Positions 4,330 to 63,400 of a stretch of DNA of 64,000 bases are shown one piece after another. This DNA is from Ulota crispa (Eukaryota > Streptophyta > Bryopsida > Orthotrichales > Orthotrichaceae), in NCBI GenBank assembly GCA_963920765.1, contig OY987245.1:12292727-12356726 (forward strand), written 5' to 3'. The translations under genes and the position numbers were made by a program. The notes under the pieces are model-generated. The model was given only the letters and a program-made list of their open reading frames with translations, had not been told where the DNA came from and searched no databases. How positions within the stretch are numbered: position 1 is the first letter of the stretch; every line of letters starts with the position of its first letter.

Positions 4330-5373
4330 AAGTCTTGAATTCAAATGAGTTGGACTCATCTAATAACCATCAATGTTTATATTTTTATTGCAAATTACAT
4401 GTTGGTTTTGTAAACGCACACCCTCTCAAAATCAAAACTCATGCTAATTTGGTTTTACATCATCCAATGAAAGATCAACATAACTATGACACATCCAACT
4501 AGTTATAGACTATTTGTGTAATTATGAAAATTTCATGTCCTCAACCCCACAATGACCCTAGAAATTCCCGAGCTTCTAGGAATTTGCTCTAATTTGAACA
4601 AAAAGCCAACATATTGATAAGTTGTATCAATTCTTTTGAATTGTAACTGTACAAAATCAAAATAGACATGTTAGAGATCACATTAGGAAAGAAAACACAA
4701 CAATATCTCTTACGGATTGAAAGATTATAATGTTTAATCATGAGGGTGTTAAAACTTTGAAAGTAATTTGAAGTCTTTTAACCTTCTTTTCACATGTCAA
4801 ATTTAAAAACTTGGTCACTAAAAAAATATGACGTCAAAGGGCTTAACATGCATAGCCCCAAACAATTTATGACTTTTCAAAATTTCCTCTACAATTATTT
4901 TAAATGAATTTCTAATGTGATTTTTTCTCAAAGGTTTAGCGTGTTTGAGGATCACTTCCAAGAGCCCTCAACACTACATAAAGTCAAGATTGCAATGGAC
5001 ACCTATGCACAAAATCTTTAATAGAAAATTCATAATCAATCATTTGCAAAATCAAATTGTTGAAGCTAATACTAAACTTCAAACAAATTTTTTCAAAAAT
5101 ACAACTTACAAAAAACAATAATTTGGTAAGGTTTTATTTAACTTCAAAAATTAGTCGAGGACATTTTGTCCTCGGCGTTGTTTTGGGGGTTAAATATCAA
5201 TATTTTTTCAATATTTTGCATTTATTTTATACATATGAATAGTTCATATTTAGTTAAATGTGACGTAATTGCTATATATGATTCTTAATCCTTAAACATT
5301 TGAGCATGCCACATTGACCAATATAACATAAGGTATTTTTCTTGTATTTGGAACATATTCACACCTTTACTAT
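4330..5373. other. Intergenic, AT-rich; contains a decayed repeat fragment
   Basis: No gene is supported here. The segment at about 4555-4790 resembles, in reverse complement, parts of two other copies in this window (about 46200-46440 and 38160-38290). It includes a block related to 'cttctaggaatttgctc', and a stretch around 'ttgaaagattataatg' shared with 46260-46300. It is probably an old fragment of the TTAACCCCTAAATGCC repeat family. The remainder shows nothing recognisable. Confidence 0.6.
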
Positions 5374-5893
5374 TGTACCTTCCTAGCAGGTTTGGCACAA
5401 AATAATTATTTAAATATTTGCCTATTTTTTTTGGAAATTAGACAAATTTATTGCCTAAAATTTGTGAAATAAAAGTAGAATAATGCCTTAAAAATGGACA
5501 CAAAAGCACTTAAATAGGATAAAAAATCACTATGTTCCGTACTAAGAGCTTGGCGTGCAAACGTTAGTGTGTTCACTAATATTGTAAACATCTTTTTTGA
5601 AACAAATGCCCAAAACTTGGCTAATTTTGTGAGGGCAATGCTTTTGTACTATAAATGATTGGCTTGTCATATCAAGTATTCTATTGCAAATAAATGATGA
5701 TCATACCAATATCAATCAAATCAAATATTTTGGCTCAGTTACTAAGTCTAAGTGGAGTAATGCCTAAATGTTATAAAACTTTTAAGTCATAAATGACTAA
5801 AATATTTATATTATTTTTGCAAATGCTTAAGCTTGTTTTTGAATTTTAAATAATTATTAGGCACAAATGTGCCAAACTTGCTAGGAAGGTACA
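5374..5893. repeat. Inverted-repeat element, about 520 bp
   Basis: TGTACCTTCCTAGCAGGTTT at the left end is matched by the reverse complement of AAACTTGCTAGGAAGGTACA at the right end. Similarity continues inward for about 20 more bases, including a shared AATAATTATTTAAA block. No coding capacity is seen and no clear target duplication was identified. The termini suggest a non-autonomous DNA transposon of unknown superfamily. Confidence 0.7.
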
Positions 5894-19436: not shown

Positions 19437-19770
19437 AATTTCTCCATGAGGGATTAGCTTTACTTTTAGTCATTATGCTAGTGACAAATGCATTCTAGAA
19501 TCAATATACCACCTACCAAATGTTTGCAAAATCTCTAGTTTTTATGTTGCCGTTTAGACACCTATATTCTATGCAAAAAGTACCATATTTGTGCATAGTT
19601 TGTGAATGCTGCTAGCTCCTTATTGTTTTAGTCATTGTACTAATGACACATGCATTCAAGAATCAATATATCATCTCTCAAATGTATGTAAAATCTCCAG
19701 TTCTGATGTTGCCGTTTGGGCACCCAAATTTTCATGCAAAAAGTACCATATTTGTACATGCTGCCAATTC
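19437..19770. repeat. Two-copy tandem duplication, about 165-170 bp each
   Basis: A unit running from 'tagtcatt(a/g)t' to 'caaaaagtaccatatttgt' occurs twice in direct orientation (about 19437-19600 and 19606-19770) with roughly 85 percent identity by eye. It lies within the left part of the Stowaway-like element. The small open frame across the second unit has no recognisable domain. Confidence 0.75.
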
Positions 19771-20660
19771 CTTATTATTGATGATTTAAAGATTAGTAGC
19801 AACAATTGTACCTCATATGGGCAAGGCCAAGCTTATTAAGAGAGGAATGCTCTCTAATTTCTTAACTCTTTAAAGACCACACACATTTTCACAAAATCCA
19901 CTAGAAACTAGGGTAGTAAACATAAATGTGTAGTTGAATCAAATGTGGACCTAGTTTGCATGATCCAATCGTACAAAGAACACTTTTTTTACTATGAACT
20001 ATCAAAATTTCAACCAAAACTACTGTTTGAAGTAAAATATTATGATTAAATGAGCTACAAGTGGAAAATCTCTAGTTTTCACGCTTGTGTGGTTTTGGAT
20101 TTTAGTGCTTCATACTAGCTTTGCTTGAGAAGAGCCTTATATTTCTAGAAAGCACGCTTTCCCACCTTTCCAATAAAACCAGTTTCACACAAAATGGATA
20201 AAATTAGTAATCACATAGTATAGCTAAGTGGACAAAAAGGTCAAAAACCCACTTTATTTGCTACCCTAAAACGTTTCTATAGGAAATTAGATAAATGCTA
20301 CAAAAAATCCAATTGGTGAAAACAATCAAAAATTAGCCTCAAATGTAGGATGACAAATTTTAAAAAAGAAATGATAGTACAATTTCAATAGATCTTCAAG
20401 TGCTATTATCGTACTACTATTGTATAGAAAAACTATACAAGTATATTTCTTAAGCAATTTGAAATTTTTTAAAATTGTGCATTTAAAATGTGACATCCTT
20501 TTTGGATGTTTGATGTATTGTGTTGTTGTTTTGATCCATCTTTGACCAAATATGGATATGTATTTTGAGGGTATGTCATATAAACACCATTATTTATCAA
20601 CTCATATATCCAATTCCATTGTCATATTTTGGTTGGATGTGATATTCTTGTGACCACAAG

Positions 20661-21184
20661 AGTCACGGACATGAACGGATTGACCTAGAAGGTTCTAGAA
20701 GATTCTAGAGGATTAAAAGGATCTAGAGGATTAGAAGGTTTTTAGAAGGTTTTAAAAAGATAAAAAGTCTTGGAAGTTTCTAGAAGGTTGAAAGCCTCTA
20801 GAAGGTTAGAAGCTTCTAAAAAACTGGAAGCTTTTAGAAGCTTAAAAGCTTTTAGATGACTGGGAACTTTTAGAAGCCTAAAAGCTTTTAGATGACTGGG
20901 AGCTTTTAGCTTGAAGGCTTCTAGAAGCTTGGAAGGCTCTAGAAGGGTGGAGGCTTCAATTTTTGGGTATATATATGAGTTGAGGCTCAGAGGTTCCTCA
21001 GTCTTGACAACTCATCTTGCCTCTTTAGTTTTTGGCCTTCAAGCCTTAGTTTTTTGCCTTGCTTTTGTCTTGTATCACTATCATCTAAAATACATCTTTA
21101 GCCTTGGTTCTAGTATTCATTTGCATTCTTGTCTTGATTTCCGACTCCCAAACTTTGTTTTGGTACTTGAGTCCATCCCTGACA
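20661..21184 (+). repeat. 5' LTR of the Ty3/gypsy element
   Basis: Its start (AGTCACGGACATGAACGG) aligns with TGTCACAGACATGAATAG at the 3' LTR, so the original TG has become AG here. It ends CCTGACA like its partner. The U3 part (20688-20940) is a dense series of GAA and TTC pentamers, many in alternating heat-shock-element spacing. A TATA-like TATATATAT lies at 20968-20976. No standard tRNA-Met primer-binding site is evident immediately downstream. Confidence 0.9.
20688..20785 (+). promoter_or_regulatory. Cluster of heat-shock elements in the 5' LTR
   Basis: GAAGGTTCTAGAAGATTC at 20688-20705 is four perfectly alternating nGAAnnTTCn pentamers. GAAGTTTCTAGAA at 20773-20785 is a perfect three-unit element. 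Further GAAGCTTC-type pairs continue to about 20930. Heat-shock factors bind three or more such alternating units. The cluster lies upstream of the TATA-like sequence at 20968, the expected order for a heat-inducible promoter. Binding itself is an inference. Confidence 0.7.
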
Positions 21185-21410
21185 GTTTGTCGAGATTGCT
21201 TTCAAATATCATCAAAACTTTTTGATTTCAAATAAAGCATAGATTACCATTCCATTTGAAAATTGTAAAATGTTTTAGGAGTTGTGAATTATCTACTTCT
21301 GAATTGATGATGTTCTGCTAATACAACATTTTTTTTTCTTTTTTTCTTTTTTTTCCAAATATTCGCACTTAAGTTATTTTCAACATATTACCAGACTAGT
21401 ATTCGTTCAT

Positions 21411-24400
21411 TATGGAGGAAAGAGGTGAAATGGTGATGAGCAATTCAAAGCTCGACATTATTATGTCTGCAATCACTTCCATGAATATTGAGCGCCAATA
21501 AATATTCAAATAGACTGAAGATCTCAACGCAAGACTTTCTGATCTTGAAGCAAGACTACAACAAACTATGGAGTGAGGATTTGTTGCTGCACCTACATCA
21601 ATTATTCAAGCCAATAATCTTTCAGATTCTATGTTTCACGCTTCAAGTTTCAGCAAGGTAAAGAACCCAGAGTCAGCCTTCTGGATAAATTCAATGGCAC
21701 GCATTTCAAATTTTGTGGTTTTGTCAACCAAATTTGGCTTATTACGCTCCTTCAACCCCAACAATATTCGACAGACGCAGCTCGTATTGGATTGATTAGC
21801 GATTGTCTTGAAAAACAACGACGCACGACGCAACTGCGGAGCACAAGACAGAAAAATAACAAAATCCAGCCACAATAGAAACCATACGGCTGGATTCGGC
21901 AGTATCATTAACATCATCAGGTTCCGTATTATCCGCAAATCTTACTCCTTGCTTTACCGTACCCATATGTCCGGATTCAAAAAATATTAAAATCCAAGCC
22001 TTGATTGATTCAGGAACCTCAGCTTGTTTCATTGATGAATCTTTTGTGAAACGTCATAAAATTTCTACTATCCAAAAATCAAAAGCCATTTACGTTGAAA
22101 TTATTGATGGACGACTGTTATTTTCTGGCGATATTATTCTTGAGACAATTCATTTATAAACAATAGTAAAAAATCATAATAGCCATGTGGTCTACAACAT
22201 TATCTGTTTTTTGTTTAGTCATGTAATTTTAGGACTTTCATGACTTGAAATATTTAATTTTCAAATTGATTGGACAAATTGTAGTGTTACCTTTTTACTT
22301 GAAAAATTTTCTATAAGTACGCCAATGATTACAGCTGAAGACCCTTCCAACTAGAAAACATCAAAACCTTTATTTCTTTGAGCTTGAGCATTTACGGAAG
22401 CCGCTAAAGACGCTGATATATTTGTGGCTTAAGCAATTCCAATATTTGAGCAAATCACTACAACAACTTTGCTTCCAAAGGAGTATAAAGATTATCAAGA
22501 CGTCTTTGAGAAAAAAAATACGGATATTTTGTCTAAACATCGATCATATGATTGCGCAATCGACCTTCAAAATGATGCTCAACTACCTTTCGGTCCCATA
22601 TACAACTTGTCACAAAATAAACTATCTGCATTGAAAAAATATCTTGACGAAAATTTGGCAAAAAACTTCATCCAACATTCCAAGTTTTTAGCTGGTGCAC
22701 CTATCTTATTTGTGAAAAAAAAAGATGGATCTTTACGTATGTGCGTAGACTACCGAAAGCTCAACAAAGTGACAATCAAGAATCGATATTTTTTACTTCT
22801 AATCAGCGGACTTCTAGATCAAGTCGGACAAGCAAAGATTTATACCAAAATTGATCTAAGAGAAATTTATAATCTTGTGCAAATCAAAGAAAATGGCTAA
22901 TGAAAGATAGCTTTTTGAACAAGATATGGCCATTTCGAATATAATGTTATGCTTTTTGGATTTACAAATGCATCAGCTATCTTTCAACATCTCATAAATG
23001 ATATATTCAGAGAATTCTTGAATGATTTTGTTGTTTGCTATCTAGACGACATCCTAATATATTTTAATGATATAGTTCAATATGAAAAACATGTGAAGCT
23101 AGTACTTGAAAAGCTTCGCAATACCGGCCTATACGCTAAACTTGAAAACTCTATTTTTCACATTACTGAAGTGGAGTTTCTTGATTACATTATTTTGAGC
23201 AATATCATTTTCATGGATTCTAAAAAAATTCAAGCTGTATTGGATTGGGCAACTCCAAAAACGGTACGCAATGTTCAGTGTTTCCTTGGATTTGCAAATT
23301 TCTATTGAATTTTTATCAAAAATTATTTTCAAATTGCTGCTCCACTTACACGGCTTACATGCAAAGATAAATTGGAGTGAAGTTTAGAAGCAGACATGGT
23401 ATTTCAAACATTGAAGCAAGCTTTACTACAGCTTCAATATTGGTTCATTCGAACTTTTTCAAACCTTTCTCTATGGAAACAAATATTTTGGATTTTGTAT
23501 TGGGCGCAGTGCTATCACAACAAGGAGAAGACAAAAAACTTCATCTAGTTGCTTTTCATTCAAGGATATTCAGAGTCGCGGAGATCAACTATGAAATCCA
23601 TGAAAAACAGTTATTTGCTATTGTGGACTCTTTTCGGGAATGGCGTCATTTACTTGAAAGCGCCGCACATCAAGTGACAATATACACAGATCACAAAAAT
23701 CTCGAATATTTTATGTCTACTCGTGTTTTGAATTGTCGATAAGCTCGTTAGAATATGTCTCTATCTAGATTTGATTTTGACATTATACATCGACTCGAAA
23801 AGCTACAAGAATTATCTAATGCTTTATCCAAAAGATCCAATTTTATGCTTAAGGAAGGGGAAGCAACCTATGACCAACAACGGACAACATTTTTGAAGCC
23901 CGATCGCCTACGTTTACGAGCAACTCAAATTTCATTTCCAGTTCATTCTAGTTTTTTTGATTAAATCCGAGCAGCCTCAGCTACATATGCCTTAGTATTT
24001 AATATCTAGCAACGCTTTATCAACATCACGGAGGATTCTAACAAATTCAAGATTGAGAAAAAATGTCTGTACTTTGAAGAACTCCTTTATATTCCTGACG
24101 GACCATATTGCCTTCAAGTCATGCAAGCACGTCACAATCTTCCAGCCGTTGGACACTTTGGATTCAATAAAACGTTGGAATTCATTTCTCAAGATTTTTG
24201 GTGGCCTTAAATGTGAAAAATCATCAAAGATTTTGTACTATTTTGCAATTCTTGTTCTTGTTCAAAGAATCATTGACATCGATCGTACGGACTTTTACAG
24301 CCTTTACCAGTGCCGAAACAACCATGGTCATCCGTTTCTATAGATTTTATTATAAATTTACCAATTTTGACTAAATTTGATTATATTTGCGTGATAGTCA

Positions 24401-25345
24401 ATCGGTTTTCAAAAAAAACATATTTTGTTCCAGGCAAAAAGACAATTATGGGAGAAGAAACAACTAAGCTTTTTATCGACAATATTTATCGTTATCATGG
24501 ATTACCCAAAAATATTGTATCGGACAGAGGACCTCAGTTTATCTCCAAATTTTGGCAGTCGTTATCCAAGATTTTGCAAGTAAAGATTAAGCTTTCATCA
24601 ACATTTCATCCTCAAACCGATAGTCAAACTGAATGTGTAAAATAAATTTTGCAGCAATATTTGAGGTGCATTATAATTTATCAACAAGACAAATGGGTAT
24701 CTTTACTGCCATTTGCAAAATTTGCATACAATAACAAGAAACATATATCAATTCAAGAAGTCTTATTTTATGCTAACTATGGCTTTCATCCAAAAATTGA
24801 TATGTTACCAGCTTAAAAAGAGGAGAATCCTGCAATAGAAAATCTAGCAAGACATCTAAAGGAGTTACACATAATAATGTAAAGTCATTTAGAGAAAGTT
24901 TACGTACGTTATAAGGATTGTGCCAATGTGAGAAGAAAAGAGCAATTAAAATTTTGAATTGGTGATAAAGTGTGGCTGTTGCGGCGTAACATCAAAACAA
25001 CTCGTCTGAGCAACAAACTTGATTATTGCCGAATTGTGCCGTTTGTTATTGAAAAATAAATCAATGCTGTTGCATATCAACTACAACTACTGGTGTCAAT
25101 GAAGGTACATCCCGTATTTCATGTTTCACTTTTAAAAACTTATAGGGAATCTAATTTTCCTGAAAGAGTTTAACCTCCGCCACCTTGTGTTGAAGTGGAT
25201 GATATCATAGAGTATGAAGTTGAAAAGATGTTAGATTCAAGGATTTGAAGAGGACAAGTTGAATATTTTATTCATTGGCGTAGATATCCAATTAGTGAAC
25301 TTACGTGAGAATCAGCTTCAAACTTAACTAACGCACCTTTGAAGA
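21411..25345 (+). pseudogene. gag-pol remnant of the Ty3/gypsy element
   Basis: Open pieces are separated by stops and frame changes. A gag start at 21411 soon meets stops near 21500, and a second gag block lies near 21670-21800. A retropepsin DSG motif sits at about 22007-22015. Reverse transcriptase runs 22469-22900 and 22949-23308, with the active-site YLDD at 23039-23050. RNase H spans 23377-23742, with TDHKNLEYF near 23690. Integrase spans about 24050-24840, with SDRGPQF near 24520 and the final Glu near 24630 in TDSQTE. A chromodomain follows at about 25200-25340, with EVEKMLDSR. Catalytic motifs remain visible although the chain is broken, so this was once an active chromovirus. Confidence 0.9.
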
Positions 25346-25435
25346 TCCAAGAATTTCATTGCCAACATCTATCCAAACCAAGAGCAACAATACTACGAAT
25401 TCTTCGAAGGATCTCGAAGCTAGAAGGGGAGGTGA

Positions 25436-25928
25436 TGTCACAGACATGAATAGATTGACCTAGAAGGTTCTAGAAGGTTCTAGAGGATTAAAAAATTCTA
25501 GAGGATTAAAAGGATCCAAAGGATTAGAAGGTTCTAGAAGGTTTAGAAAGATAAAAGTCTTAGAAGTTTCTAGAAGGTTGAAAGCTTCTAGAAGGTTGGA
25601 AGCTTCTAAAAGACTAGAAGCTTTTAGAAGCTTAAAAGCTTCTAGATGACTAGAAGCTTTTAGCCTAGAAGCTTAGAAGGCTCATGAAAGGTAGAGGCCT
25701 CAACCTTTGAATATATATAGGAGTTGAGGCTGAGAGGTTCCTTAGTCTTAACAATTCATCTTGCTTCCTTAGTCTTTGGCCTTCAAGCCTTAGCCTTTTG
25801 CCTTGCTTTTGTCTTATATCATTATCATCTGAAATACATTTTCATCCTTAGTTTTAGTATTCCTCTGCATTCTTGTTTTGATTCTTGACTCCCAAACTTT
25901 GTTCTGGTCCTTGAGTTCGTCCCTGACA
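25436..25928 (+). repeat. 3' LTR of the Ty3/gypsy element
   Basis: It starts TGTCACAGACATG and ends CGTCCCTGACA. It carries the same layout as the 5' LTR: a perfect four-unit heat-shock element at 25463-25480, a three-unit element at 25563-25575, more GAA/TTC pairs to about 25670, and TATATATA at 25712-25719. The two copies differ by substitutions and small indels, yet the perfect heat-shock modules are kept in both. Confidence 0.9.
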
Positions 25929-26279
25929 ATAAGTATTTTTCAAGAACAATTTTTAAATTGTTGAACAATTTTACTCTATAGCCTAAAAAACATTTTGATG
26001 AACCAAAATAAGGTTTGGTGGTCTCTAAAGGGTTAACTTGCCTCCATGAGATCATTGAACATGATAAATGCTTTCTCAACAATTGAAAGTAGTATAAAGG
26101 AGCGTCTTAGTGGGACAAGAACTATACTTAATTTGGAGCTTTATATTGAGACGTAGGGAGTATATCTAAATCAATCAATGTCCAAACGAACAAAATATAA
26201 AAAATTTACAAAGTATTTTGAAATTGTATCTCTATTTGTAATATTCTTTAATTTTTATGCTCCTAATTGTAATTTCCCC

Positions 26280-27340: not shown

Positions 27341-28251
27341 CCGTGCCCCCGCCCTCGAGAACGTCGAGATTCTTGAAGCCTTGTTGCGTTTTCAGCAAAC
27401 ACAATCTCGCTTTAAGCTTAGATTGTCGCAATTTTACGTATGTTGTTGTGTTCCTGCACCTCCTCATCGTTGTCGATGTTTCATTAGGTTATCTCATCTT
27501 GCGGATCAGAGAACCGTGGCGAAGAGCTTGGCTTGGACGAGCGTCGCCGCGAGCAAAACGGGTAAGTGTTTTGTCGAATTTTGCATTGCGTGTCGTGTAT
27601 ACCGTTCCAATTTCACATCGTTCTTTCTCTCTACAGAAACGTATGGGATCTGTATTCTTAAACCTTGAATAATTTTTGCGTAATTTCAAATTACGTGTGA
27701 GTGTTCTGTGTCAATTGAGCTTTTTCTTGTTCTTGAAGTTTCTGCTTTTTAGGCACTACGACATTGCAACAATTGGTGTTAGTTCTTAAGGCTAGCGAAA
27801 CCTTAAGCAAAGAGAGACGGAGAGAAGGAGAGAATAAGATCCGTGAGACGATGAAAAAGGGGCTCAAGTTGAGGGAGGTGTTTAGAAGTGATGTAGAGTG
27901 AGAGTAGAGGCAAAGGGAGATTAATTGAGGTTTTAAGGAGGGGAGATTGTTGATGGACAAGTGGTGGTGGTGGTGATGCAGGAGGGCGAAGGTGGCGACG
28001 ATTGTGAGCAGCGAAGGTTGAGAGAAGGTGACCAAGGCGCAGCTGTTGTTGGTCAGGTACGATATTTTAGTACCGTTTAGTAGATGCGTTGGATGGATTT
28101 TTTTCTTACGGTGGCTGAACTGGTAGTAAAATTCAATTTTTGCAAGCCTTTTTTGCTGAAGATTGCAATGCAGACTGTATGCAAGTATTGAGATGGTTCA
28201 GTTTGCAATCTTTTAATTTTTTGCTCAATTTTTGCATTGATTGACGCAGGG
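27341..28251 (+). other. Putative 5' untranslated exon and leader intron of the XS/XH gene
   Basis: A good donor (CGGGTAAGT at 27559-27567) and a good acceptor (TTGACGCAG ending at 28249) bracket about 690 bases just upstream of the start codon. This suggests an untranslated first exon followed by a leader intron. The model rests on splice signals alone, with no protein evidence, so it is tentative. Confidence 0.5.
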
Positions 28252-31200
28252 ATGGCCGACTCTGACGGTGATGAGTATGATTCAGACGAGCTGTCTGAAG
28301 CGTATGAGGAGGCCAAGGCAAGGCTTGCGGATGGGACAGCGAAGTGTACAAACTTCGATGGAACATTTCGGTGTCCCTATTCCCCGGGTCGCAAGAAGCA
28401 GGATTACAAGTACCATGAGATACTCCAGCATGCTGTGGGAGTGGGGAAAGGGAAGCGGGGCCCTGTTAAAGCTGGAAGGCATCGTGCCTTGCGAGAGTAC
28501 TTGGAAAAGGATTTGGCTGCAAGGGCAAAGCCTCAGGCAGAGCGAGTTGTGCATTTGCAGCAATCCATTCCTCCTAGGAAGGACATTGAAGAAAAATGGG
28601 TGTGCCCTTGGATGGGCATCTTGCAAAACATCGACAACAAGTCTCGAAGACCCTCAGACAATTTTCGTATTGGTGCTGGCGGGGCCGACATTAAAGAGAA
28701 GCTTAAGGTATTTAATTCTTTCTTCCTATGCTTTTTATTTTAAGGAAAATTTCATGGATACCCCTGGAGTTTGCAATATTTTCATAGATACCCCTGCTTT
28801 TTCAGAAATATCAGAAATATACTTGGACCAAAAAATTTAGGCGTTTGTTTTATTATGCATGTCATTTCCTTCTCCCTTTGTGTGCACACTATTTCTTTCT
28901 TGTTATGCGTGCACACAAAGGAAGAAGAAAAGTGACACGCACAACAATCCAAACCCTAAATTTTTTGGTCCAAGGGTATTTATGATATTTCTGAAAAAGC
29001 AGGGGTATCTATGAAAATACTGCAAACTTCAGGGGTATCCATGAAATTTTCCCTTTATTTTAATAGGTGAATGTCTATTGTATGTGTTCTTTGACCGTCT
29101 TTGATACGGTACTCTACTGGATCGTCTCTTTTCTGTTGGATGATGGAGTCTTAAACCCTAATACGAAAGAGTTTGTAACTCTAGAGAGAGTGATCAGCCA
29201 CTAATTGGCACTGTGTATTTGTGTGAGCTTTGACCTAATTGTCTGAAGGATGATGACAGGATGAGAAGGAAGTCCTGATGGAACCCTAATGCGTTGCACT
29301 GTTTATGACAACATTTTTCTGATATTGAACTGATTTCAGGTCTTCAATCCAGTGTCTGTCAAAGTTCTCTATGACATCAGAGGTCATCTCGGTGTTGCTG
29401 TCGTCGAGTTTCAAAACTCTATAGTTGGCTTTAAGGATGCTGAAGCGTTTGGGAACAGTTTCTATTACAAGAGGAGGGGACGTAGGGATTTTGAACAAGA
29501 TTATCCAGATAAATGCGGCACACACTTGTATGGGTGGATGGCTACCAAGAAGGTACGTTCGTCACGGCAAACTTTTCAGTTTTTTTTTTAATGTTTTTTA
29601 GAGATTAAAAAATTCATTGTAATAAAAATGGAATGTGGCCAATGTGCAGGATTTTGAGACCTCTGACAAACTTTTACACGATCATCTGAAGGCAAATGGT
29701 GATTTGAAAAGTTTAACAGACATTGTGAGGGAACTAGAGCTTAAAGCACTTCAACAGGTGGTTGTTCTTCAAAGTGCTGTGATGAAAAAGGACGATGTCT
29801 TGATAGCAACAACTCGGCAGAACTGGAGCTTGTCAAACAAAGTTGACTATGTCACGGCCCAACGTGAACAAGCTGAAGCAGAGATGCAAAAACTCAACGA
29901 CGCTCATAAAAAGGGTAAGAAGAGGGTGAAATCACTATTTTTCTTTGGATTAGAGCCTTTCATTTTGTAATAATGTCAAGTATGAGGGAGACAGATTGTC
30001 TGCAATGTCTTTGAAATGCTCATGGATAACCTCGTCTGCAGAACTCGAGGATTTGCAACGAGCGCAATCGTCAGCAGCTGAAGAGCATGAGAAGAACATG
30101 CGAGTCCTTCGATTGCATACCGAGAGCAGGATGCTGGAGTTGCAAAGCAAGATTTCTGAACACGAAAAGTTGAACTTGGAGAATGAGGCTGAGAAGGCTC
30201 GTCATTGTGAAGAAAAAGAAGAGGTAACCCTAAACCCTAATACCGGCCCTTTTCTCTCGTTGTTAGTGCTTCATTTGTTCGTTGTTTTATCCCGTGGTGG
30301 TTTCTGACCTTCGAATTTTTTTGTGGGGTCCATGCGGTTTAGGCACAAAGGTTGTTGGATTTGCTTAAGATCCAACTCAAGCAACATGAAGTTCAAGAGT
30401 CAAAACAGGTTGAACTCATCAAGAAGCATAAGGTTGACACTCCACCTCCACTTTTGGTGTCATGTTGCACCGAGTATTGAGTGGGATATTGTTGCATCAT
30501 TTTTTGATTTATATATTAATACAACAATCTTGTCGCAGACTTGAAGTGTAGGTTTCTTATTAATAAGAGCCAGGTAATTCATGTTTTTCTTTTTGTCTAT
30601 TTCATTAAAGCAGGTATTAACGCTTAGGTTTGACCGCATGTACGGCAGGAGGAGAGAGAGAACTTTGAGAACGAATTGCAAGAACAACGGAAGAAACTCC
30701 AAGCGAAACAGAATCGTGAATTGGAGAGTCAACGAGTAGCAGAGCAGTTGGAAGCGGAAAAATCCAAGAAGGCAGAGATTGTGGAGTCTCAGAGAGAGGA
30801 GACAGACAATGAAAAGGAATGCAACAAGAAGATTGCGGAGTTGGAGGAAAAGTTGAAAGACCTCGAAGAGGATTTGGATGGGAAACATGATCTTCTAAAT
30901 GATTTGACTATGTCCCAAAGACAAGCAAATGATGAAGTTGAGATGGCCAAGGCGGCAATACTTCGATCTAAAGTATGTCTGTTCTTCCAACATCCCTTGT
31001 AGTGTAGTGTTGTCTTTGAACGATTGTATGTTCTTTCTCGAGCACAACTTGATGATCTTGAATCAAGCTAATTTTGGAACTGGTTTTTCTGAACTAGGTG
31101 TTGCAAAAGTACGGGACATCAGAGCTTGCGGTGAAGAGTCTGGGCGAGCTGAATACTGAAGGATGGTTTGACGTCTGTGAAGATAAGTTCAAAACTGCTG

Positions 31201-60423: not shown

Positions 60424-63400
60424 ATGTCGCAGAAAAAGAGGTTGAGCAGCAGCAGCGGAGGAGGAGGAAGCGGTGGCATATCGCCGAATATGATATCAGC
60501 TACGAAGAAACCGAAGAATCAATCGATAATTGATCAGTTTGAGAAGAATGGCAAGGTAGTAGGGATGGCTGTGGAGGAAAACAACAACGCCGACATGATG
60601 TTCGTGGATGGTGTGGAGGATCATCTGGCGTCCACTGGCGCTTATCCTGCGGGGCCGGCGTCGGCTATGATGATGAGCAACAACAGTCCCGGGATTGGGA
60701 CTACAGCGAACTTATCGCGGAAGAAAGCTACTCCACCGCAGCCTGTGAAGAAATTGGTCATCAAGCCTTTTAAAGGTATACTTTGGCCTGTATACTCTCT
60801 TCCTTTTATTCGCATGAGTTTTCGAGCATTTCCGTTTTCCCCCTTAAAACAGAGTCTTTAGACACATTTACTTTGACTTTTGTGTGTTGAATTCTTCACG
60901 ATGAAGGTAGCTGGACAATCGCCAATGTAATATCCTGAGTTTTGCTTCTTGGCGGCATTAATCAGCACGAGATTTATTGATATTTATTTACGGTTCCTTT
61001 TTGAATAAGGAGAAATGTCCTTAGGGTTGTCCATTGCGAACACAAGCTATTCCGAGTGACTATGAGGTGGTTGAGCGATCTTTGAATTTAAGGGTTTAGT
61101 GAGTCCTTTTGCATTCCTTATTGTATTTTAATTGCTAAGTAGTCATGAGACTTGAGATTCAGTGAAAAACGTTATGCACTTTTCTGGGGATGGATTTCGT
61201 CATGCCAGAAGGCTCCATGTGGAATGTTTCTTATTTCCAGAAATTCTGTAGCTGCAAGCGTGAGGTATGTTTTCTTTTTTAGGGTTAGGGAGCGTCAAAT
61301 TTGTCGGTATAGGTCGTTATGTCATAAGAGGTTGGTTTCTTGATGGCCAGGTCTTGTTGACCAACTGCCTTTATTTTTTACTCTGTCGCAGTAGACGAAT
61401 GATGCCGCTTTTGAGCTGAATCTGTTGCAGCCAGTTTCTGGCCTGTTTCATTGTTCATGCTTTAGCAATTAGTCAAGTAAACATGTCTGTGTTTATTTGT
61501 TTTTCTCAAAGGCTATACCTCTTTTCACGGGGCTTTTCTTTCTTTTCATATTGGATCGATCGCCCAGAGTTTGCGCTGGTGCGAGTGCTGATATCAGGTG
61601 GATTCGCTGATGTGTTTCTTGTCTTTTGCGTAGATAAACCAAAGCTGCCCAGTAATTTTGAGGAGCTGACATGGGCCAAGATCAAGGAAGCCGTAACTGC
61701 AATTCACCTGAAGCAGCCAGTGAGTTGTAGTTTGGAAGAGTTGTATCGGGCTGTGGAGGATCTTTGCCTTCACAAGATGGCAGGGAACTTGTACAGAAGA
61801 TTGCAGCAGGAATGTGAAAGTCACATCTCAACCAAGCTGAAAGATCTTGTAGGGCGCAGTCCTGACGCCGTGGTGTTTCTGTCTCATGTGGAAAGTTGTT
61901 GGCAAGACCATTGCGACCAGATGCTTGTCATCCGTAGCATTGCGCTCTATCTGGATCGTACCTATGTTATCCAAAACTCGGGTGTTCGATCTTTATGGGA
62001 CATGGGTTTGCAGCTTTTCCGCAAGCACCTTTCAGCTTGTCCAGAAGTCGAGTCTAAGACTGTCTCTGGTCTTCTCAGGCTTATCGAGAAGGAGAGGTGA
62101 GATTCTGTGGTAGACTTGATGTAATTGTCGTTTTATGTAGTATTAGAAGCCAGACGTGGCAAGTAGCTTGAATGTAGTGCTTTTAAACGTGCATTTTCTG
62201 GTAAGTGGTTGTGTTATCAGCTTGCTTCTTGCTGTGGAAGAGGCCGCAAAGTTTCCTATTTCGAGAAGGTTTGAAGTTTTCACTTTTGCTGGTGTATGCG
62301 TGCTTGCAGGATGGGAGAGACTGTGGATCGGAGTTTACTGAAACATCTGCTGCGCATGTTTAGTGCTCTCGGTATATATTCTGAGAGTTTCGAGAGGCAA
62401 TTCCTAGATTGTACTGCTGACTTTTATGCCGCTGAAGGGACACGCTTTATGCAGCAAACTGATGTTCCCGATTACCTTAAGCATGTCGAGGTGAGTGCGT
62501 TAGCATTTGAGATTGACAATGAAGACGAAATGAAAGCTTTGAGTGTGTCTTTCAATTAAGATTTGTGCAGCTTGAGTTCATCTGCTGAATACTCTCGTTT
62601 CATTGTTCAGAATCGTCTTCAGGAAGAAAATGAGCGATGCTTGCTCTATCTGGATGGAAGTACACGGAAACCGTTGGTGGCTACTGCTGAGAAACAGCTT
62701 CTCAGCCGCCACACGGCTGCAATTCTGGAGAAGGTGAGGTTGCTGTGTGACTAAATGGGACACACTTACGATGTTCGTTCTAGACCCGCATAATCGGTGT
62801 CCTTCGTTTACATCTTTTTGGTCTCTTACTTTCAGGCCTTGAAGTGTAATTGGGTCTTTATCGCGGAAGGATGTTAACTTTGTGTGGTGTGTTGGTGGTT
62901 ACAGGGATTCAGCATACTTATGGATGCAAACCGTGTGGCAGATCTTCAACGAATGTATTTGCTTTTTGCTCGTGTAATTGCCCTAGAGCCCCTGAAACAG
63001 GCTTTAAGCACTTATATTAAAGCAACGGGCAATAGTACAGTTATGGATGAAGAAAAGGATAAGGACATGGTACCTTGGCTTTTAGATTTGAAGGCACGCC
63101 TTTATACCATTTGGGAAGAAAGCTTCTCTAAAAATGAAACCTTTTCCAATACTGTGAAGGACGCATTTGAGCATCTGATCAATCTACGCCAGGTAATACA
63201 GCTTGCAGTAAAATTTGAGTTGGAATTTTTGAGGTGGTTACCAGCTGCAGTTTCTGTTACCTCGTGATTTAAGTGCTTCATTTTCAGTTTCTGTAGCAGA
63301 GCAATCTATTACCAGTATGTTAGTCATATGTCACAACCACAAATTAGGGCAACTGGAAGGACGTGGATGTCTTCCTTTTTAAATAGCATGATGATCTATG

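Follow-up and report, generated by a model that had tools for sequence, protein, structure and literature searches.

Heat-shock element arrays in the long terminal repeats of a moss chromovirus family suggest a heat-shock-factor enhancer

Results

Perfect heat-shock elements upstream of the TATA box

A 64,000-nucleotide stretch of the genome of the moss Ulota crispa (contig OY987245.1, positions 12,292,727 to 12,356,726 of the forward strand; here called the window, from whose first letter positions are counted) lies on chromosome 4 (C4) and contains a broken, old copy of a chromodomain Ty3/gypsy retrotransposon. Upstream of the TATA box, in the U3 region, both long terminal repeats (LTRs) of this chromovirus carry arrays of heat-shock elements (HSEs). 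The promoter array is real and is kept in nearly all family copies examined. A heat-shock function of the U3 array is probable, and we estimate the probability that U3 is an enhancer for heat-shock factors (HSFs) at roughly 0.6. A preliminary description of the window had reported the arrays and proposed a heat-responsive retrotransposon; the observation is confirmed, and the interpretation is partly supported.

We inspected positions 20400-26200 base by base for LTRs, arrays, TATA boxes and the target duplication (Table 1). Direct reading bore out the positions given earlier for one four-unit and one three-unit array in each LTR and for both TATA-like sites. In length the arrays correspond to the 3P and 4P classes of heat-responsive element (HRE) defined in PMC5059998. 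One perfect three-unit array of the 3′ LTR had gone unlisted; its counterpart in the 5′ LTR is imperfect, so that two of the three arrays that are perfect in the 3′ LTR are perfect in both. The argument that these modules stayed perfect while the LTRs diverged elsewhere fails as evidence, as the two U3s differ by 13.1% and the remaining LTR by 12.9%. With U3 and the rest diverging equally, we rejected conservation between the two LTRs as a sign of selection.

Tandem repeats with a period of 18 make up U3: each LTR has 13 in-register copies spaced 18 bp apart, and repeat analysis counted 10.3 copies at 25460-25646 and 9.8 copies at 20773-20945. An intact 18-bp unit is by itself a three-unit HSE. 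In the U3 of the 5′ LTR, six three-unit HSE-type sites were found with at most one core mismatch, two of them perfect. The cytosines of the arrays are nearly all in CHH context (0 CG, 0 CHG and 89 CHH in the 3′ LTR; 0 CG, 6 CHG and 97 CHH in the 5′ LTR), and the CHH share amounts to 92% in the family U3s versus 76% in the whole window. This is a parallel to the Arabidopsis element ONSEN, whose promoter cytosines are nearly all CHH and whose LTR cytosines are all CHH (PMC3907296), and no proof, as deamination also removes CG and CHG sites.

Array excess across the family

The family sample comprised 57 LTRs, the window's own two included (30 loci and 27 further LTRs fetched). Two queries taken from the 3′ LTR gave 185 and 119 candidates, of which 40 were scored in each case, so that the family counts are lower bounds. 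An array was defined as GAA and TTC in strict 5-bp alternation, and 200 dinucleotide shuffles of each U3 served as the null. The TATA box marked the boundary of U3 in 55 LTRs; the other two, L046 and L047, yielded no TATA, and their U3 was delimited by length. LTRs with misplaced ends (L013, L025, L046, L047 and L054) were kept in the array counts.

A perfect array of at least three units precedes the TATA box in 54 of the 57 LTRs, and 11 of the U3s reach at least four units. The mean number of arrays per U3 was 1.74, against 0.012 in the shuffles; in the LTR part after the TATA box, perfect arrays were found in none of the 57. Two checks proposed with the preliminary description, HSE density relative to shuffled sequence and persistence of the HSEs in other family members, thus came out in its favor. 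The result is independent of the U3-based finding of copies: arrays are present in 37 of the 40 LTRs retrieved by the TATA-side query, which includes about 47 U3 bases, and in all 17 LTRs that the U3 query alone retrieved.

As shuffling erases the tandem repeat, a second control that preserves the repeat was applied to the same palindromic arrays, with each of the 32 trimer pairs counted at every gap from 0 to 8 bases (288 grammars). GAA/TTC at gap 2 was the widest-reaching of the 288 (54 LTRs, 99 arrays), followed by CTA/TAG at gap 6 (42 LTRs) and AGC/GCT at gap 6 (37 LTRs). When up to one core mismatch was allowed, the mean rose to 5.79 sites per U3 versus 0.22 in shuffled sequence. G>A or C>T accounted for 138 of the 231 core mismatches in one-mismatch sites, a bias that fits deamination decay of formerly perfect sites.

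The published genome note gives 275.00 Mb, 408 scaffolds and eleven chromosomes (PMC11803377). Our genome-wide counts cover 274,817,297 bases in 157 contigs, the gap to the published total presumably resulting from filtering. On this scale the four-unit pattern occurs at 218 places, compared to 84 for the reversed pattern. Among the first 50 of the 218 places, one perfect four-unit HSE sequence occurs eight times at C1:20589891-20593199, direct and inverted, within 3.3 kb. At L092 and C1:40467207-40473870, two related reverse transcriptase (RT) matches of equal score lie inverted about 6 kb apart, with the four-unit HSE places 40469955 and 40471105 between them; this locus may be an inverted duplication.

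Transcription start and self-priming

The motif AGTCTTGACAA, with up to three substitutions, begins 30-33 bp after the TATA box in 51 of the 57 family LTRs. The RNA 5′ end predicted from this motif is supported, because its first 11 nucleotides are complementary to a putative primer-binding site behind the 5′ LTR: 21187-21197 and 21000-21010 pair at 11 of 11 positions (nine Watson-Crick and two G:U pairs). The HSE sites of the window copy, six or seven in number if perfect sites and those with one core base off are counted, therefore lie about 310 to 55 bp upstream of the start.

Genome-wide, the start and primer combination AGTCT...AGACT was found at 15 places and AGACT...AGTCT at 11, while the reversed controls gave 0 each and the mismatched combinations 0 and 1 places. 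A compensated change in this pair distinguishes family A, to which the window copy belongs, from a second family, B. No TGG-type tRNA primer site was found at the LTR ends examined. Judging from the pairing, reverse transcription most likely starts by self-priming of the Tf1 type. Self-priming is itself of a known kind here; a survey reports it, among plant chromoviruses, for no clade other than Tcn1 of mosses and lycophytes (PMC6317226), whereas a Selaginella Tcn1 element gave no evidence of it (PMC2864245). The compensated pair of families A and B is useful support for self-priming.

Two further sets of candidates were discarded. Among the RT loci L062-L091, the best signatures other than that of the window's own locus (L062) look like chance duplexes in coding sequence; the 1.5-kb flanks taken for these loci fall short of the LTR in fuller copies, because the window copy is shorter before RT. 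A loose primer-site rule called 28 of the 57 LTRs 5′ LTRs and was left unused, as at least two of these (L011 and L018) show the polypurine context of 3′ LTRs.

Arrays in related families

A homologue search with the RT stretch returned 707 matches, the 120 of them listed giving no help in placing the clade; the RT-stretch query retrieved relatives from 100% down to 41% identity, with 150 of 723 candidates scored. In the segments upstream of related RTs, perfect arrays of at least three units were found in 4 of 16 (L092, L093, L096 and L098), a count that is not a frequency, as the presence of an LTR was established for only some of the 16. One of the four arrays has five units, partly with other spacers, and L098 resembles a third family, C, by eye.

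The further groups (B, C and A-related) were located via the primer signature and not via HSEs. In family B, none of 10 copies (10 of the 11 places were fetched) carries an array in the 250 bp preceding the start, and the segment of the eleventh place, L105, has none either. In family C arrays were found in 4 of 5 copies (all five places), with positions differing between copies; in L109 (C2:4976317-4976687), a four-unit HSE whose spacers differ from those in the arrays of the window lies 85-68 bp ahead of the predicted start. All three A-related copies carry arrays. The shuffle means for these three groups were 0.02-0.04 in total. Because families A and C have U3 parts in common, the arrays of the two are not fully independent, but they are for the most part different ones. 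The pattern among families A, B and C resembles the turnover of HREs in Brassicaceae COPIA families, where arrays were gained and turned over among related families (PMC5059998).

Age and divergence of the copies

We obtained 21 LTR pairs, 3.3-5.4 kb apart on the same strand. The LTR divergence K of the window copy is 0.146; at a moss substitution rate that we take to be about 9.4e-9 per site and year, this would date its insertion to about 8 million years ago. Selection was assessed as between-element minus within-element divergence, which cancels decay after insertion, using 20 of the 21 pairs (L047/L050 was dropped) and 1115 of 1520 between-element comparisons, the rest having less than 85% of U3 aligned. 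The excess divergence between elements was 0.012 for the HSE core, 0.031 for other U3 sites and 0.046 for the spacers. In a bootstrap over elements, the core was below other U3 sites in 93% and below the spacers in 88%.

Element layout, coding domains and surroundings

Most of the 57 family LTRs have a TGTCAC-like beginning and a TGACA-like end; the first base of the window's 5′ LTR is altered (AG versus TG in most family LTRs). A purine tract with TGA precedes many copies assigned as 3′ LTRs, and unrelated sequence precedes those assigned as 5′ LTRs. Stops and frame changes disrupt the window copy, whose LTR spacing is 4744, compared to 5274-5393 in 17 of the 21 family pairs. This copy is about 0.55-0.59 kb shorter before RT than fuller copies; the distance from the 5′ LTR end to the RT stretch is 1249 bp, versus 1835 in a C1 copy (LTR L024, RT L067).

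The order protease, RT, RNase H and integrase, with a chromodomain at the integrase end, is present over broken stretches. Out of 13 open stretches listed from sister copies, four were submitted to Pfam and all four contain Chromo. The assignment as a chromodomain Ty3/gypsy element, made in the preliminary description, thus stands, with the window's own chromodomain interrupted by stops. An alignment to HP1 (1kna) shows that the chromodomain of the sister copy L023 retains Y, W and Y, which we take to be the residues of the aromatic cage of HP1-type chromodomains. By its domains and priming signature, the family appears to be a chromovirus with Tcn1-like features.

Table 1. Features of the chromovirus copy in the window and the basis of each call.
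Feature	Position	Strand	Basis
Target-site duplication, left copy ACAAG	20656..20660	.	read directly
5′ LTR, 524 bp, end TGACA	20661..21184	+	sequence reading, family comparison
U3 of 5′ LTR, period-18 array	20661..20967	+	repeat analysis, array count
Perfect four-unit HSE (4P), 295-312 bp upstream of predicted start	20688..20705	+	read directly, array count
Perfect three-unit HSE (3P), 5′ LTR	20773..20785	+	read directly, array count
TATA box of 5′ LTR	20968..20976	+	read directly
Predicted transcription start (A of CA, 32 bp after TATA) with first 11 nt, putative self-primer	21000..21010	+	start-motif search, complementarity
Putative primer-binding site, 2 nt behind 5′ LTR	21187..21197	+	complementary to 21000-21010
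Open stretch resembling aspartic protease, best E 4e-4, below Pfam cut-off	21860..22156	+	Pfam
RT, two open stretches (22433-22897 below cut-off, 22919-23305 above)	22433..23305	+	PF00078
RNase H, frame differs from RT stretches	23371..23739	+	PF17917/PF17919
Integrase: zinc-binding 24010-24207, catalytic core 24277-24642	24010..24642	+	PF17921, PF00665
Integrase C-terminal SH3 domain, Tf2-1 type	25060..25170	+	PF24626
Chromodomain region, stops inside	25190..25360	+	sequence reading; Pfam in sister copies; one aligned to HP1
Polypurine tract and TGA directly ahead of 3′ LTR	25422..25435	+	family context comparison
3′ LTR, 493 bp, TGTCAC...CTGACA	25436..25928	+	sequence reading, family comparison
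Perfect four-unit HSE (4P), 3′ LTR	25463..25480	+	read directly, array count
Perfect three-unit HSE, 3′ LTR only, not listed before; 5′ LTR counterpart imperfect	25527..25539	+	array count
Perfect three-unit HSE (3P), 3′ LTR	25563..25575	+	read directly, array count
TATA box of 3′ LTR; predicted start 25744, 32 bp on	25712..25719	+	read directly, start-motif search
Target-site duplication, right copy ATAAG, one base unlike left copy	25929..25933	.	read directly

Outside the element, the window contains two copies of a 69-nt direct repeat at 19500-19730 (162 bp start to start, 81% alike) and, on the plus strand at 61420-62100, the N-terminal part of a cullin gene (Pfam Cullin, E 1.8e-33). At 28192-28743 on the plus strand, about 2.4 kb downstream of the predicted start in the 3′ LTR and on the same strand, lies an exon that encodes an XS zinc finger and the beginning of an XS domain (below cut-off). 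XS-domain relatives act in RNA-directed DNA methylation.

Discussion

A probable enhancer for heat-shock factors

We propose that the intact 18-bp units of the U3 tandem array would each act as a three-unit HSE. When the family was active in the past, HSF trimers of the host would have bound the U3 arrays under heat or a related stress, activating transcription that begins 32 bp beyond the TATA box; the full-length RNA would have served as message and as template for reverse transcription, and the element may have benefited from this coupling. The host genome contains five matches to the HSF DNA-binding domain, each over profile positions 1-59, two of which, both on C8, score equally. In Brassicaceae LTRs, 3P and 4P sites correlated with strong heat induction (PMC5059998), and HSFA2 bound the LTR of ONSEN in vitro (PMC3907296).

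The array could instead be a passive palindromic minisatellite grown by slippage during reverse transcription or replication, in which the unit TTCTAGAAG yields the HSE grammar incidentally, without involvement of HSFs. Both LTRs do hold period-18 tandem arrays, U3 length varies from 209 to 361 bp among copies (the shortest was set by length, TATA not being found), the constraint on the core is not significant, and other inverted grammars are frequent too, as the 42 and 37 of 57 LTRs reached by the two runners-up indicate. Nevertheless, GAA/TTC at gap 2 still ranks first among the 288 grammars by LTRs reached. Arrays of four or five units, partly with other spacers, occur in L092 and L109, by eye outside an 18-bp array, and family B, with a different U3, has arrays in none of 10 copies. 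We therefore consider slippage alone rather unlikely.

A self-complementary array might also work at the RNA level, if a hairpin in the transcribed 3′ LTR affected 3′ end formation or fed small RNAs that trigger silencing. Both U3s fold as RNA far better than shuffled sequence (z -5.3 for 25436-25710 and z -5.1 for 20661-20966); however, the same folding would be expected of palindromic HSEs in an array, so that it cannot separate the readings, and a hairpin would not need the observed preference for GAA nn TTC nn GAA. Such a role seems improbable. Still more improbable is another stress-related or developmental activator recognizing TTCTAGAA or AAGCTT palindromes: palindromic units would suit many dimeric factors, but the 5-bp alternating phase over three to five units is what trimeric HSFs require, and, without a search of a motif library, we know of no rival factor for this spacing.

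Several observations weigh against an HSF enhancer. Three of the 57 family LTRs and one of the five family C copies lack a perfect array, and L095, a relative with recognizable start and primer site, has only doublets and no perfect array. For runs of at least four units, CTA/TAG at gap 6 reaches 17 LTRs and GAA/TTC 11. Sites inside one tandem array are not independent of each other, and constraint on the HSE core is only a trend and no proof. The copies are old, with LTR K of 0.04-0.22 in 20 of the 21 pairs (the remaining pair has a misplaced LTR end). The case for HSF binding and heat induction is built from sequence, and in another moss heat shock represses the chromodomain family RLG1 (PMC7466625).

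Comparison with known elements

ONSEN (COPIA78) and the heat-responsive COPIA families of Brassicaceae likewise carry 3P and 4P nGAAn arrays in the LTR promoter (PMC3907296, PMC5059998). However, ONSEN belongs to Ty1/copia of angiosperms, and for it HSFA2 binding and heat induction were demonstrated (PMC3907296), whereas the Ulota crispa family is a moss Ty3/gypsy chromovirus with an 18-bp tandem-repeat array of probable heat-shock function. With the Tcn1-clade chromoviruses of mosses and lycophytes and with Tf1/sushi, the family has in common the HP1-like Y, W and Y of the chromodomain and the SH3 domain of Tf2-1 type (PMC6317226, PMC2864245), as well as the self-priming signature, the lack of a tRNA-type primer site in the flanks examined and the moss host. 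HSE arrays, in contrast, go unmentioned in the accessible text of these two reports.

In Cryptococcus, the LTR elements TCN3 and TCN12 are mobilized at 37 °C and have putative HSEs in the LTR, and TCN3 is a Ty3/gypsy element; there, however, the host is a fungus, the putative HSEs number one (TCN12) or two (TCN3), and a tandem array is not described in the parts accessible (PMC12810828). In the moss Physcomitrium patens, the Ty3/gypsy family RLG2 is induced by heat and abscisic acid and RLG1 has a chromodomain; unlike the reading proposed here, RLG1 responds to heat shock by repression, and HSEs are not discussed in the accessible text (PMC7466625). Heat-induced Ty3/gypsy elements have further been reported in Cryptomeria and moso bamboo (PMC9780303, a review; PMC8656106). 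The suggestion of an independent heat-responsive case thus holds in part: the dense HSE array in a chromodomain Ty3/gypsy family stands, but it would not be the sole case, given the heat-induced Ty3/gypsy elements of Cryptomeria, moso bamboo and Physcomitrium (RLG2) and the LTR HSEs of TCN3 and TCN12. In the accessible literature on heat, HSEs, gypsy elements, bryophyte LTRs and self-priming, with subscription journals mostly outside its scope, we found no report of an HSE array in a moss LTR, and no paper on Ulota crispa retrotransposons was found.

Implications

A wider account is tentative and may well claim too much. Self-priming moss chromoviruses may have joined the heat-shock response through amplification of an HSE trimer to a promoter minisatellite with 18-bp units, with sister families gaining, moving or lacking arrays; coupling to HSFs would then have an origin beyond flowering plants and Ty1/copia, and the LTRs that survive might still make nearby moss genes heat-responsive. 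If true, retrotransposons would have tapped the heat-shock response in a lineage apart from that of Arabidopsis since early land-plant history, and would have done so in the other LTR superfamily, via an unusually dense, repeat-built array. Families A and C, with arrays, and the family B copies fetched, with none, form a natural contrast within one genome, which suits the question whether HSEs in an LTR suffice for heat activation and spread.

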